NCBI RefSeq assembly: GCF_000346615.1
Contig: NZ_ANNU01000023.1
Location: 62,001-126,000, forward strand
Reading direction: 5' to 3'
Length of the DNA: 64,000 nt
Source: Nafulsella turpanensis ZLM-10
Lineage (GTDB): Bacteria; Bacteroidota; Bacteroidia; Cytophagales; Cyclobacteriaceae
Both the position numbers and the translations under genes were made by a program. Positions 19,822 through 25,864 of this stretch are shown piece by piece; within the stretch, counting starts at the first letter, position 1; every line of letters starts with the position of its first letter. The notes beneath the pieces were generated by a model. It was not told the origin of the DNA, ran no database searches, and worked only from the letters and a program-made list of their open reading frames with translations.

Positions 19822-20910
19822 TTATGGATAGGCCAATAAGGCGTCGGCTAACATTTCAATCTGCTCTTTAGAATGCGTAGGAAAATTGGCAATTCTAATA
19901 TGTTGGTTCTTATATTCGCCGTAGCCTGTACTTACTTCCATATTTTTACCGGCCAGGTAATCCAGGAGCCTTTTATGGTCCATATCTTTCTGTAATTCAG
20001 CAACAATGGTTGTTTTTGACTGGCACTCTTTATTCCTTACAAAAGGCTGCAAATAGTTACATTGTTCAATTGCCTGGTACAGAACGGCAGCTTTGTAATT
20101 TGTTTCCTGCTTAATCTGTCCAATGCCTTTAAGGTTCATGTCTTCTGTTACCTGTGCCAGTAAATAAACATCGAGCACATTGGGAGTTTCGGGTGTTTGG
20201 TATTTTACCGAATGGGCAACAAGGTTGGGTAAACTGTGGTAAGAGCCGATGGAGAAACCTTCATCCTGTTTCTGCTCTGTTTTGCGAAGACAGCGTTCAT
20301 TTACAACCCAAACTCCCAGGCCGGCAGGAAGGCCAAATCCTTTTTGCACGGAAAAAAACAGGCTGTCGACCAAGCTTACTGGAAAAGTAAGGTAAGGAGC
20401 GGAGGAAACCACATCAACCGCCAGCAGGGTGTCTGGAAAGGCTTTTCGAATAGCTGCGATATCGCCTGCCGGCTGCATAGCCCCGGTGCTGGTTTCGTTG
20501 TGGGTAAGGGCAATAAATTCAGTATTGTCCGGGAGAATCAGTTCCTCAGGTTTGCTGCAGCTTCCCGGCTGTGCGTTAAATATTTCAGTCTTTATTTGAA
20601 GAGCCTGGGCAGTTTCGGCAAAGCGTTGGCTAAAAGCGCCGTTTACCATATGGCATGACCTTTCTGTTACACAGTTTTGCAGGAGTCGTTCCCATGCTTC
20701 GGTACCGGAGCTTAAAAAAAGGACATAGTAATCTTCTGGTATTCCCAGGAGCTCCCGGAGGTTACCGGCTGCTTTACGGTAAATATTCTGGAAGTCAATG
20801 CTCCGATGAGAAAGCGACGGAATTTGTTCTCTCAACGCATTTTTAAGATGTTCCTCAGCCGTGAAATATAAGGCCGATGGCCCGGCGGTAAAATAAAGCT
20901 TTCTACTCAT
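19822..20910 (-). CDS. serC: Phosphoserine aminotransferase-like class V aminotransferase
   Basis: A 362-residue PLP enzyme. The N-terminus RKLYFTAGPSALYF, the helix SHRSIDFQNIYR, and SSGTEAWERLL are typical of SerC-like class V aminotransferases. The PLP lysine is in FFSVQKGFGLPAGLGVW. SerC converts 3-phosphohydroxypyruvate and glutamate to phosphoserine and 2-oxoglutarate. The SerB-SerA fusion and glutamate dehydrogenase genes within 5 kb on the same strand strongly support a serine-biosynthesis role. The ATG at 20908-20910 is used rather than the TTG two codons upstream. Confidence 0.85.
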   Translation of the reverse strand: MSRKLYFTAGPSALYFTAEEHLKNALREQIPSLSHRSIDFQNIYRKAAGNLRELLGIPEDYYVLFLSSGTEAWERLLQNCVTERSCHMVNGAFSQRFAETAQALQIKTEIFNAQPGSCSKPEELILPDNTEFIALTHNETSTGAMQPAGDIAAIRKAFPDTLLAVDVVSSAPYLTFPVSLVDSLFFSVQKGFGLPAGLGVWVVNERCLRKTEQKQDEGFSIGSYHSLPNLVAHSVKYQTPETPNVLDVYLLAQVTEDMNLKGIGQIKQETNYKAAVLYQAIEQCNYLQPFVRNKECQSKTTIVAELQKDMDHKRLLDYLAGKNMEVSTGYGEYKNQHIRIANFPTHSKEQIEMLADALLAYP

Positions 20911-21042
20911 AAACAATAGTAAAGGGATAATTCGTTATCAGTCCAACCCTCTCCAAGGGCAATTGTTGGTGACCCCGGCAAGTATCTGAAAACCTTTGAT
21001 ATATAAAAGAGGCATCTGGTTTTCAGTCTAAATTATTTGAAC

Positions 21043-21050
21043 TAATTTTG
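21043..21050 (+). promoter_or_regulatory. Bacteroidota -7 element (TAATTTTG) in the serC/hydrolase intergenic region
   Basis: TAATTTTG matches TAnnTTTG in full. A possible -33 region (TGGTTTTC at 21018-21025) is about 18 bases upstream. It would start a plus-strand transcript near 21057, almost 300 bases before the hydrolase start codon. Confidence 0.45.
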
Positions 21051-21056
21051 TTGGAC

Positions 21057-21347
21057 AATCGTACAAGAATAGAGATTGTAGCGCTGTAAAGCTCATAAAA
21101 ATATTCCTCACACAGGTCAGGCTCGTTTTTCAAACCTAACAATTACTAAATAACGAGTGAAGCCTGCCGGAAAAACTGGACCTCAACCCTGGTTTAGCCA
21201 GGGTCATTCCCACTACGGTGGAAATGTTAACAGTGGATAGTTGCCTCGGTCGGGCAGCTCAAAACGTGTCTTATAGGAGGTTTGATAAAACCCTTACCCT
21301 GGCCTGTTGTGGGGATTTTTGTTTCTCCATTAAAGGACTCTTTTAAA
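21057..21347 (+). ncRNA. Candidate structured RNA or long leader upstream of serine-hydrolase pseudoenzyme
   Basis: This 290-base stretch has no convincing ORF but dense complementary segments. ACCCTGG/CCAGGGT (21186-21204) makes a perfect 7-bp hairpin. CATTcCCAC/GTGGaAATG (21205-21226) makes a second, and both sit inside a CTGCC/GGCAG closing stem (21164-21168 with 21253-21257). CTCGTT (21122-21127) can pair either with AACGAG (21152-21157) or, as CTCGTTTT, with AAAACGTG (21261-21268). A TAnnTTTG promoter lies at its start. It matches no RNA family I can name with confidence; 6S-like RNA or a riboswitch-like leader are possibilities. Confidence 0.35.
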
Positions 21348-22388
21348 GTGTTATACTCTGCTTTTATATCCCGTCATTTTATCCTTTTTTTCTTTTTAAT
21401 TTTATGCTCCTGGGCCTGTTCTTCTCCAGAAGAAGAGCCGCAGGAACAAGCTGCTCCTCCCGTAACGGGAGATTATTTGTACAGGAAACCTCCGCAAAAG
21501 TCCGACGGCTGGGAAATAGCTAGCCTTAAACAGGAAAATATGGCGGAAGAACTGGTGAACCGCATTGAAGGGGACCCTTCCCTCGGGATTTCCGGGGTGC
21601 TGTTGAGCCAGGGAGGAAAACTTGTTCTCGAAGAATACACAGACCCTTTGCTGGCGGATTCCCTGCTTCCGATTGGCGAAAATCGCCTCCTGATGATTGC
21701 CACCCTTACTGCTATTTTTGAAGCCGAAGCGGATGGACTGCAACAACATATGGTTAGTTTATCCTCATCTGTTTATGCAGGAAGGCAAACGGTTCCAGAC
21801 ACTTCTGTTGCCCTCCAGCAGTTGCTCAAAATGCGAGCAGATCTCCTTTGCCGACCTCAGCAACAGACTTTCCAGGATGTGGCAAGCAAAGCTCATGGCG
21901 ACGATTACTATTACTGCCCGGCAAATTACCTTGCAGTGATGCAGTGGCTGGAGGCAAAAACCAATGAGCCATTAAGCTTTTTTGCCGAAGGAAATCTCTT
22001 TGAGCCTTTAGTTATTGACAGGTATCGCTGGGATGGAGATGAAATTGAACTTATACCCAGAGATATGCTAAAGCTGGCGGCACTTTATGCGCAGCAGGGA
22101 CGCTGGCAGGGGAATGAAATTTTCCAGGATAAATGGGTCCTTCGCCTGCAGGAAAAAGCCTATGATGAAAATGCACAAGGCCGCTTCCGCTATGGCTGGT
22201 GGCAGCATCGCCTGCTGTCTGAGGGCCGGCAGTATGCTCTGTTCTACTCTAAGGGAGAACATTACCTTCTGGTATTTGTGCCTGACCTGAATGGGGGGCT
22301 TTTACTTATAGGTAATTTTGATAAACCGGTTACGGAATACTTTAACCTTATTGCTGAACAGGTTATTCCTGCCTTAAAACCAGAATAA
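21348..22388 (+). CDS. Serine-hydrolase (class C beta-lactamase-like) lipoprotein, probably catalytically inactive
   Basis: A 346-residue lipoprotein (hydrophobic FILFFFLILCSWAC, lipobox Cys). The fold resembles the beta-lactamase/PBP4-like family: LGISGVLLSQGGKLVLEEY near the start, then YYYCPANYLAVMQWLEAKT in the place of the YxN block and WDGDEIELIPRDMLKLAALY later. Where active members have SxxK, this protein reads PIGENRLLMIA, with no Ser-x-x-Lys. A pseudoenzyme that binds rather than cleaves a peptidoglycan-like or peptide ligand is inferred. The GTG at 21348 gives a normal signal peptide; an upstream TTG at 21282 would add 22 unlikely residues. Confidence 0.7.
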   Translation: MLYSAFISRHFILFFFLILCSWACSSPEEEPQEQAAPPVTGDYLYRKPPQKSDGWEIASLKQENMAEELVNRIEGDPSLGISGVLLSQGGKLVLEEYTDPLLADSLLPIGENRLLMIATLTAIFEAEADGLQQHMVSLSSSVYAGRQTVPDTSVALQQLLKMRADLLCRPQQQTFQDVASKAHGDDYYYCPANYLAVMQWLEAKTNEPLSFFAEGNLFEPLVIDRYRWDGDEIELIPRDMLKLAALYAQQGRWQGNEIFQDKWVLRLQEKAYDENAQGRFRYGWWQHRLLSEGRQYALFYSKGEHYLLVFVPDLNGGLLLIGNFDKPVTEYFNLIAEQVIPALKPE

Positions 22389-23971: not shown

Positions 23972-25864
23972 TCAATACAGCACCCTGAATTTTATGGTAT
24001 TCTTGATGCTCTTCAGATCCCGGATAACATCCTGGCTGTACTGCTTATCAATATCTGTTATTACATAACCAATATGCTCATTAGTTTTAAGATACTGGCC
24101 ATTGATATTGATTTGGTGTCCGGCTAACACATTGTTTATGCCTGCGAGTATACCTGGCGTGTTGTGGTGGATATGGATGAGGCGGTGCGCATTTTCAAGC
24201 CTTGGGAGTTGTAAGTTTGGAAAATTAACGCTGTTGGTGGTGCTACCCGTATTGATGTAATCGATGATTTTGCCAGGCACGAACTGTGCAATGTTTTCCT
24301 GTGCTTCCAGGGTGCTGCCACCGATGTGAGGACTCAGGAGCGTGTTTGGAAGCCCCTTCAGTTCTGACATAAAAGGCTCATCATTGGTTTTAGGTTCTTC
24401 AGGAAACACATCTACGCCTGCGCCGGTTACTTTGCCTGATTCAATAGCCGCTTTTAAGGCGGCAATATCTACGACATGGCCCCGGCTCAGGTTCAGGAAA
24501 ATAACTCCTTCTTTCATTAGGGCAAATTCATGAGAGCCAATCATGTTTCGGTTTTCCTTCCGCCCATCTACATGCAGGCTGATGATGTCCGCTTTCTTCA
24601 GTAACTCCTCCAGGGAGCTGCACTTGGAAGCATTTCCCAGCGCCAGCTTTTCCACTACATCATAATAGTAAACATCCATACCCAGGTTTTCGGAAAGGAC
24701 ACTGAGTTGCGAACCGATATTGCCATAACCGATGATTCCGAGTTTTTTTCCGCGGATTTCAAAGCTGTTTCTGGCTGATTTATCCCATTGCCCCTCATGC
24801 ATCTTGTGGGATTTGTCTGGCAGGTTCCGGATAAGCATAATAATTTCACCGATGGCCAGTTCTACCACTGAGCGGGTGTTGCTGAAGGGGGCATTGAAGA
24901 CAGCAATGCCCCGGCTGCTGCAGGATTCCAGGTCAATCTGGTTTGTGCCAATGCAGAAGGCTCCAACGGCAATGAGTTTATTGGCATGTTTCAGCACTTT
25001 TTTGGTGACCTGCGTTTTACTGCGGATGCCTAATATGGAGACTCCTTTAATGCGCTCGCATAGTTCATGTTCGTCTAGCCCACCTGGGTGAACTTCAAGG
25101 CTGTAGCCTTCCTGCCTGAGTAGTTTCTCTGCAAGTGGATGGATGCTTTCGAGGAGAAGTACTTTAATGCGGTGTTTTGGATAGGAGTAAGCCCTGCTGA
25201 GTTTGTTTAGAAACAGGACTTCATCCAGGCTTGGAGTAATATGATCGGCTTTATCGACAATGCTGTTTCGCTCTACATTTTCGGTGAAGGCGTAAAAACG
25301 GTTGGCCAAACCCGCTGCTTTTATTTCATAATCGGTATAGCCATCGCCAATCACATATACATCGCCTTCCAGTTCAAGTTTTTTAAGTTGTGCTACTTTA
25401 CCATTATTGCCTGCCAAGGCATTTTCCAGATCAAAGCCGGTTATATTTCCTTCCTTGTCATATATAAAGCTGTTGGCAAAGATGTGGTCCGGCCTGATTC
25501 CATAGGGAGCAACTACAGGTTCTATAAAATCACGGAAGCCATTGGAAACGATGTATATCTGTTTGTTCCATGCCTGTATAAAATCCCGGTTCCGTTTAAA
25601 AGATTCACTCACTTCGTTTTTCAGCCTTTCTACTAGCGCATCGATATGTTCTTTTTTTGCTTCCAGCAGGCTTAACCGCTGTTCGAGCGATTCTTTTACA
25701 GAAAGGCTCCCATCCATTCCGGCATCTGTAATTTCCTTTACCTTCTGAATTCGTTGGGGTTGTTCCGGGTGATGCTGGAGTGAAATTTCGGCTAACACAT
25801 CGAGTGCCTCAACTTTTGTAAAAGTGCTGTCAAAATCAATGACAAAGTATTTGTCGTTTTCCAT
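23972..25864 (-). CDS. serBA: Phosphoserine phosphatase / D-3-phosphoglycerate dehydrogenase fusion (SerB-SerA)
   Basis: A 630-residue two-enzyme fusion. Residues 1-215 are a HAD phosphatase with DFDSTFT (Asp10/Asp12), IVSNGFRDFI and VIGDGYTDYEIK, matching SerB. Residues 230-540 are a 2-hydroxyacid dehydrogenase: NAD motif GYGNIGSQ, Arg in LHVDGRKENR and LSRGHVVD, and the catalytic His in SPHIGGSTLEAQ, matching SerA. Residues 555-630 look like an ACT regulatory domain (HHNTPGILAGINNVLAGHQI). The first and last steps of serine synthesis are therefore on one chain, while SerC (step two) is encoded 3 kb away. An upstream gap of 257 bases separates it from DUF427. Confidence 0.93.
   Translation of the reverse strand: MENDKYFVIDFDSTFTKVEALDVLAEISLQHHPEQPQRIQKVKEITDAGMDGSLSVKESLEQRLSLLEAKKEHIDALVERLKNEVSESFKRNRDFIQAWNKQIYIVSNGFRDFIEPVVAPYGIRPDHIFANSFIYDKEGNITGFDLENALAGNNGKVAQLKKLELEGDVYVIGDGYTDYEIKAAGLANRFYAFTENVERNSIVDKADHITPSLDEVLFLNKLSRAYSYPKHRIKVLLLESIHPLAEKLLRQEGYSLEVHPGGLDEHELCERIKGVSILGIRSKTQVTKKVLKHANKLIAVGAFCIGTNQIDLESCSSRGIAVFNAPFSNTRSVVELAIGEIIMLIRNLPDKSHKMHEGQWDKSARNSFEIRGKKLGIIGYGNIGSQLSVLSENLGMDVYYYDVVEKLALGNASKCSSLEELLKKADIISLHVDGRKENRNMIGSHEFALMKEGVIFLNLSRGHVVDIAALKAAIESGKVTGAGVDVFPEEPKTNDEPFMSELKGLPNTLLSPHIGGSTLEAQENIAQFVPGKIIDYINTGSTTNSVNFPNLQLPRLENAHRLIHIHHNTPGILAGINNVLAGHQININGQYLKTNEHIGYVITDIDKQYSQDVIRDLKSIKNTIKFRVLY

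Follow-up and report, generated by a model that had tools for sequence, protein, structure and literature searches.

A probable, previously unannotated 6S RNA of the Cyclobacteriaceae, related to the known 6S RNAs of Bacteroidota and carrying a candidate release hairpin

The intergenic stretch at 21043-21347 of the window, by which we mean the whole 64,000-nt piece of Nafulsella turpanensis DNA analysed here, very probably encodes a 6S RNA, as far as sequence comparison can tell. 6S RNA is a small RNA which many bacteria use for holding back RNA polymerase. The most likely reading is that the window carries a new, unannotated member of this class, with an apical domain unlike that of the 6S-Flavo family and with a candidate release hairpin. 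It is most likely homologous to both the 6S-Flavo and the Bacteroidales-1 RNAs and diverged beyond their Rfam cut-offs, and its gene is, again most likely, a stand-alone, single-copy and independently transcribed one.

The stretch is flanked by a SerC-like gene on its 5' side and by an uncharacterised plus-strand open reading frame on its 3' side. These neighbours had been named serC and a hydrolase gene in the first-pass annotation of this DNA, and the first of the two names stands in part: 19822-20916 on the minus strand encodes a class-V aminotransferase that is SerC-like, with the NCBIfam serC models scoring under their cut-offs. For the supposed hydrolase at 21282-22388, neither Pfam nor NCBIfam yields a match at E 1e-5; its N-terminus resembles a lipoprotein signal, and its listed start, TTG 21282, falls within the RNA, a true start nearer 21348 seeming more likely. 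The plus strand of 21043-21347 folds at -95.8 kcal/mol (z -4.89), which none of 100 shuffles matched, and the minus strand at z -2.35, which one of 100 matched, in agreement with the earlier claim of a structured RNA between two genes. One could suspect a structured intergenic stretch arisen by chance or a coding remnant here, as the mechanical reading frame starting from TTG 21282 overlaps the 3' end of the RNA. We give practically no credence to this explanation in view of the shuffle score just quoted, the covariation described below, the presence of a single copy in 179 of 196 family genomes, and indels among relatives whose lengths are not multiples of three.

Judging by a promoter box, a closing stem and a U-run, the transcript would span 21055-21320 on the plus strand, where all of its elements lie, both ends being predicted. 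Its outer closing stem consists of a 5' arm at 21105-21121, taken from single-sequence folds and a shuffle test of the closing duplex, and a 3' arm at 21298-21315, taken from single-sequence folds, after which comes a terminator-like U-run at 21316-21320. The conserved 6S core (21126-21290) gives a full-length match of 148.1 bits to our family model R1, the window being one of the 15 sequences on which that model was trained. Within the core, the P2-like inner closing helix (helix 1) pairs its 5' strand CAAACCU at 21131-21137 with 21278-21284, and the open 5' strand of a central bubble, which includes C21140, occupies 21138-21154. GAGU and GCC on the 5' side of the stem above the bubble (21155-21164) pair with GGC and GCUC at 21253-21260, forming helices 2 and 3. 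The apical domain at 21174-21243, delimited on alignment A1, has a junction CCUCA ... UAACAGUGGA..GUUG around two hairpins (helices 4-7). The 3' strand of the bubble, with AAAnCnUGUC by column counts over 91 rows, lies at 21261-21277. Finally, an alternative hairpin UAGG.GGUUU-GAUA-AAACC.CUUA at 21274-21296, the candidate release hairpin, excludes the inner closing helix.

The closing stem is present in 16 of 16 single-sequence folds, and for 76 of 86 relatives none of the 50 shuffles comes up to the closing duplex; a TTTT lies 11-45 nt past the core in 70 of the 86. The stem above the bubble (helix 2) appears in just 8 of the 16 folds, so the interior structure rests on comparison. Across 91 distinct relatives, 91.2% of the cells are paired, and double changes occur in 24 of the 29 pairs. 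The number of double-change cells is 269 against 74.3 by shuffle, with 0 of 500 shuffles as good, and shifting the partner by one column makes pairing fall to 58.1% or 43.5%, both results being obtained on an alignment fitted to R1. The training alignment has 34 double-change cells against 11.9 by shuffle, a comparison that is not blind, as the structure was derived from the same sequences. RNAalifold on a plain MAFFT alignment returned 12 pairs only, because the lengths of the hairpins and of the closing stem vary. Counts here and below come from these 91 distinct rows, which are related sequences and hence non-independent; smaller sets reflect rows that lack a flank or are gapped, which leaves 86 for the promoter, the closing duplex and the TTTT, 89 for the tests of the 3' hairpin, up to 90 for the pairings of the first-pass annotation (86 for the longest helix of one of them, CTCGTT/AACGTG), and 82 and 77 for the flanking open frames on the 3' and 5' sides, respectively.

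Taken helix by helix, the inner closing helix has 94.8% of cells paired and double changes in 6 of its 7 pairs, and the two helices above the bubble have 99.7% and 98.4% of cells paired, again with double changes in 6 of 7 pairs; the two apical hairpins are paired in 69.9% and 80.2% of cells. In the AAC of the 5' bubble strand, A and C are invariant over 16 sequences. The 3' bubble strand, AAAnCyUGUC, is nearly invariant over the 91 rows, and the A, A, C, U, G and U of its motif remain unchanged in three further 6S RNAs, one from Bacteroidales and two from flavobacteria. The RNA has the long closing stem, the open central bubble and the apical stem by which a 6S RNA is recognised. A match to a coding sequence, or a lack of conserved structure in relatives, had been named beforehand as what would speak against a structured RNA; the covariation in 24 of 29 pairs and the non-triplet indels point the other way. 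A side observation concerns a GACA motif on the 5' side of the closing stem, which recurs right before the core GUUUU or GU in many relatives (at positions corresponding to about 21117-21125 of the window), the window's genus being without it; we found no supported pairing partner for it.

A search of Rfam, suggested in the first-pass annotation, assigns the RNA to no family, as a scan of the whole window gave no match reaching the gathering score; it does provide a lead, in that a loose scan of 20900-21480 yielded four matches with 6S-Flavo (RF01685) at the top. This match, at 21134-21282 on the plus strand, covers all 108 model positions and scores 27.9 bits (E 0.062), the cut-off being 85 bits. 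Of the remaining three, two were microRNA models matching the other strand outside the RNA, and one was a 15-nt fragment of Ocean-VII. The cut-off of RF01685 was reached in none of 39 relatives. The Bacteroidales-1 model (RF01693, cut-off 60 bits) found nothing at E <= 10 in the window region; matches under its cut-off came from the R1 locus of two family genomes, at E about 0.005, and from L032, at 35.2 bits. The canonical 6S model (RF00013, cut-off 46.4 bits) found nothing in the window at gathering score, and we dropped it as an identity for this RNA, as at E <= 1 it matched 0 of 39 relatives and 5 of 14 control genomes. With none of the 39 relatives reaching the 6S-Flavo cut-off or matching canonical 6S, an Rfam-based annotation would conclude that they lack 6S RNA.

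A further link to known 6S RNAs comes from R1, a covariance model of 159 positions and 29 pairs built from 15 Cyclobacteriaceae sequences, the window included, whose structure was drawn up manually using the folds and alignment columns of these sequences. A DNA search had found the region in 14 of 39 genomes (its own included), at one place each; these 14 loci and two from the RF01685 search form an alignment of 16, in which invariant column blocks stand beside variable hairpins. One locus, L022, was absent from the training of R1, and another, L018, from alignments A1 and A2. On a sample of the phylum, R1 matched 44 of 296 genomes, namely 8 in the family, 33 in the same class outside the family and 3 more distant. 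As many as 30 of the 33 same-class matches coincide with 6S-Flavo matches of RF01685, 8 of them above its cut-off and the other 22 below it at E 3.7e-5 or better, and 2 coincide with Bacteroidales-1 (RF01693, described as 6S-Bacteroidales), both above cut-off. With 32 of 33 overlapping one or the other, the first-pass suggestion of a stable non-coding RNA such as one of 6S type is supported. Among the 36 matches outside the family, G218 (same class) and the 3 more distant ones were not linked to a known 6S family.

RF01685 itself matched 36 of the 296 genomes, 12 of them above cut-off, and R1 missed 6 of these 36. Scanning 20 R1 loci directly placed RF01685 above cut-off at the R1 position in 6 and RF01693 in 1; in an overlapping set of 15 R1 loci, RF01685 scored 74-86 bits in 13, the exceptions being L067 and L074. 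When the comparison was reversed, the best 8 of 39 weak RF01685 places listed for 39 relatives proved to be R1 loci, which many of the weaker ones were not, and the window's own genome held no second RF01685 place at E <= 10. Since R1 matches coincide with those of RF01685 and RF01693, the window RNA groups with the Bacteroidota 6S RNAs, within no Rfam family at cut-off. R1 joins 6S-Flavo, Bacteroidales-1 and the window RNA in one homologous group with a common 3' bubble motif.

Comparison with the two nearest families brings out both what is shared and what is particular. 6S-Flavo RNAs have the same rod with an open bubble, the 3' bubble motif AAaCuUGU, an inner closing pairing of AAAC/GUUU type and one match per sampled genome, and R1 lands on RF01685 in 30 genomes. 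They differ in that RF01685 matches are 105-147 nt long (19 loci) and, according to the Rfam structure line, have a single apical hairpin, whereas the window RNA has two on a near-invariant junction. Bacteroidales-1 is of similar length (179 positions) and is found by R1 in 2 genomes; one of its RNAs, L058, shows a GGCC.CA ... CAGUGGA junction and a CUCAAAUCnUGUC bubble strand, and CAGUGGA is absent from the four flavobacterial RNAs compared with it. The RF01693 model gives no match to the window at E <= 10.

The apical junction is nearly invariant, with conservation about equal to that of the bubble, which apparently exceeds the need of a plain promoter mimic. One way to account for this is a structured RNA of 6S ancestry that has taken on another job and binds core polymerase or, via the apical junction, some other protein. 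A precedent is Ms1 of Actinobacteria, described as a 6S-like RNA with a different target, the polymerase core (PMC9130861). According to the same source, the neighbour of Ms1 is annotated as a HAD hydrolase or phosphoserine phosphatase (PMC9130861), and the SerB-like domain near the window RNA is a coincidence with it. We find such a change of job very unlikely, given that the AAnCnUGU bubble motif, the architecture and the single copy per genome are common to known Bacteroidota 6S RNAs, and that the junction motif CAGUGGA also occurs in L058. A function through binding of polymerase, as in a genuine 6S RNA, is what we infer from homology.

Of 196 family genomes with a completeness of 90% or more, 179 contain a single R1 match apiece, and these represent 72 of 76 genera. 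In the other 17 genomes R1 matched nothing at E <= 0.01; when the threshold was relaxed to E <= 1, 6 of them gave matches, the best at 0.026. Two genera, g258 and g263, stand apart, as none of their 12 sampled genomes (G510 and G515 among them) is matched by R1 at E <= 0.01, with weak matches in 5 of the 12 under the laxer search (best E 0.026), so that either loss or strong divergence may have taken place there. Within the order, R1 matched 31 of 194 genomes. A pattern scan of named genomes gave 72 stretches, all from Bacteroidota and many labelled Cyclobacteriaceae, Cytophagales or Algoriphagus. Our literature search found nothing on 6S RNA in Cytophagales, with the proviso that the survey of Wehner et al. 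(2014) may already list some.

The first-pass annotation had also pointed to a TAnnTTTG promoter upstream, and such a box is present and recurs in relatives. The box (TAATTTTG) lies at 21043-21050 on the plus strand and has the form of the primary-sigma -7 element of Bacteroidota; for Flavobacterium psychrophilum, TAnnTTTG is given as the consensus of sigma-A, located at -12 to -5 (PMC9723704), and for Bacteroides as the -7 element (PMC7366714). Transcription would accordingly start at about 21055. Of 86 relatives, 63 have the same box at a distance of 15-120 nt ahead of the core, against 6.7 expected by shuffling, seven permuted boxes giving 4-12. In 50 of these 63 the box starts 26-45 nt ahead of the core, so the RNA would start near the closing stem. 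The spacing from the TAATTTTG box to the closing stem is larger in the window and its closest relative, at about 50 nt (21055-21104), and this extra 5' leader contains a possible small hairpin (ACAATC ... GATTGT).

The other proposal made for this stretch was a riboswitch-like leader, which we take here to include an attenuator, of the downstream gene (about 21348-22388). In the window that gene does lie directly 3' on the same strand, the RNA has a terminator-like 3' end, and 16 of 82 distinct relatives likewise have their nearest 3' open frame of at least 150 codons on the strand of the RNA. However, the remaining 66 have it on the opposite strand, and across the 98 loci examined the downstream gene adjoins the RNA in just 2 genomes, both of the window's genus, compared with an RNA present in 72 of 76 sampled family genera. 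These two observations rule out a conserved leader function, and we reject on synteny a reading that we consider exceedingly improbable. What surrounds the RNA across the 98 loci (some of which were fetched twice) is, on the 5' side, a divergent SerC-like gene in 36 or a divergent universal stress protein gene in 41 and, on the 3' side, a convergent SerB-SerA fusion in 39, within 400 nt in 21 of these, or a convergent glutamate dehydrogenase in 8. The window itself encodes such a fusion at 23972-25864, a 630-aa protein combining an N-terminal HAD/SerB-like phosphatase, phosphoglycerate dehydrogenase (SerA) and an ACT domain, and in many relatives this fusion or the SerC-like gene is close to the 6S RNA.

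Two alternative foldings had been proposed for the RNA from the sequence of the window. An enclosing stem was seen between CTGCC (21164) and GGCAG (21253). Both motifs are there, and it is the register that is not conserved: all 5 pairs form in 7 of 66 countable relatives (24 more being gapped), and the conserved helix at this place is GCC/GGC, in another register, with 98.4% of cells paired. Additionally, CTCGTT (21122-21127) was thought to pair with either of two partners. With AACGAG (21152), at least 5 of 6 pairs form in 6 of 89 rows, and we discarded the pairing as not conserved. With AACGTG (21263), 5 of 6 pairs form in 36 of 88 rows, which looked like enrichment in one register; the longest helix, at 3.86, is shorter than under both nulls (4.09 for species-swap and 4.14 for shuffle), and this candidate was discarded as well. 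The general idea of two foldings fares better than the pairs named for it, as a competition between a 3'-strand hairpin and the inner closing helix is conserved in the family.

This competition arises because 21278-21284, which serves as 3' strand in the inner closing helix, is also able to fold as part of the hairpin at 21274-21296. Over 89 rows, the hairpin segment has a mean z of -1.36, with 56 of 89 below -1, as compared with -0.02 for the 5' partner strand of the inner closing helix and -0.23 for downstream control windows. When folded with bulges allowed, the hairpin has about 6.3 pairs in 64 distinct segments, with several kinds of pair at each position. Exchanging the arms of different species gave as many pairs in 1 of 200 cases and as good an energy in 9 of 200, a modest gain, and a count of uninterrupted hairpin stems showed no gain over such swaps. 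We consider it likely that two mutually exclusive foldings are real in this family. 6S-Flavo differs in this respect too: among 19 flavobacterial 6S RNAs the 3' hairpin did not exceed chance (mean z -0.06), although it is strong in L063.

In known systems, synthesis of a short product RNA (pRNA) is described to unwind the downstream helix of 6S RNA; what then drives release in E. coli is a 9-bp hairpin, formed by the 3' bubble together with the 3' strand of the unwound helix (PMC8876501). 6S RNA and pRNAs are also reported from Bacteroides (PMC7366714). By analogy, the long rod with its open central bubble would imitate an open promoter and sequester RNA polymerase carrying the primary sigma factor. 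The polymerase could then copy a short pRNA off the 5' bubble strand, from about 21140 downwards, with C21140 as the putative template for its first nucleotide, a G. This synthesis would open the inner closing helix, and the freed 3' strand may fold into its own hairpin at 21274-21296 and so help release; transcription, polymerase binding, pRNA synthesis and release are all predicted steps for this RNA. Canonical 6S RNAs (RF00013; E. coli, B. subtilis 6S-1) share the architecture, and E. coli 6S resembles our proposal in that its 3' helix strand forms an extended hairpin once the downstream helix is disrupted (PMC8876501). The E. coli hairpin is made up of the 3' bubble and the 3' helix strand, whereas that of the window RNA is shifted towards the 3' end. 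B. subtilis 6S is described as using a different release, an extra 3' hairpin there hindering it (PMC8876501). Further differences from canonical 6S are the lack of any RF00013 match at E <= 1 in the 39 relatives and the use of TAnnTTTG by host promoters here.

Whether the mimicry extends to the letters of the promoter is a matter of speculation. The 3' strand of Bacteroidota 6S RNAs, which is non-template-like, might be an RNA imitation of the phylum's unusual promoter, to which the Cyclobacteriaceae would have added a release hairpin of their own that is not the rule in flavobacteria. The proposed mimic consists of a near-invariant UUG in the apical stem, a spacing of 16-18 nt in the rows inspected and AAAnCyUG, and it resembles TTG ... 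TAnnTTTG. The best of the offsets scanned between AAAnCyUG and TAnnTTTG matches 3.70 of 6 letters, the next 3.43, and two box letters are consistently wrong. Promoters upstream of the RNA genes show no TTG preference at 16-18 nt (0, 3 and 2 of 62). It is because of these wrong letters and the lack of an upstream TTG preference that we moved from regarding this combined proposal as possible, if unlikely, to regarding it as doubtful. More generally, the primary sigma factor of these bacteria reads TAnnTTTG, and a 6S family from them that has a candidate release hairpin opens a test of how a 6S promoter mimic adapts to a different sigma factor. A minor observation concerns one flavobacterial genome, in which a Flavo-1 RNA (RF01705, at L068:2450-2527) and the 6S-Flavo RNA are about 800 nt apart.
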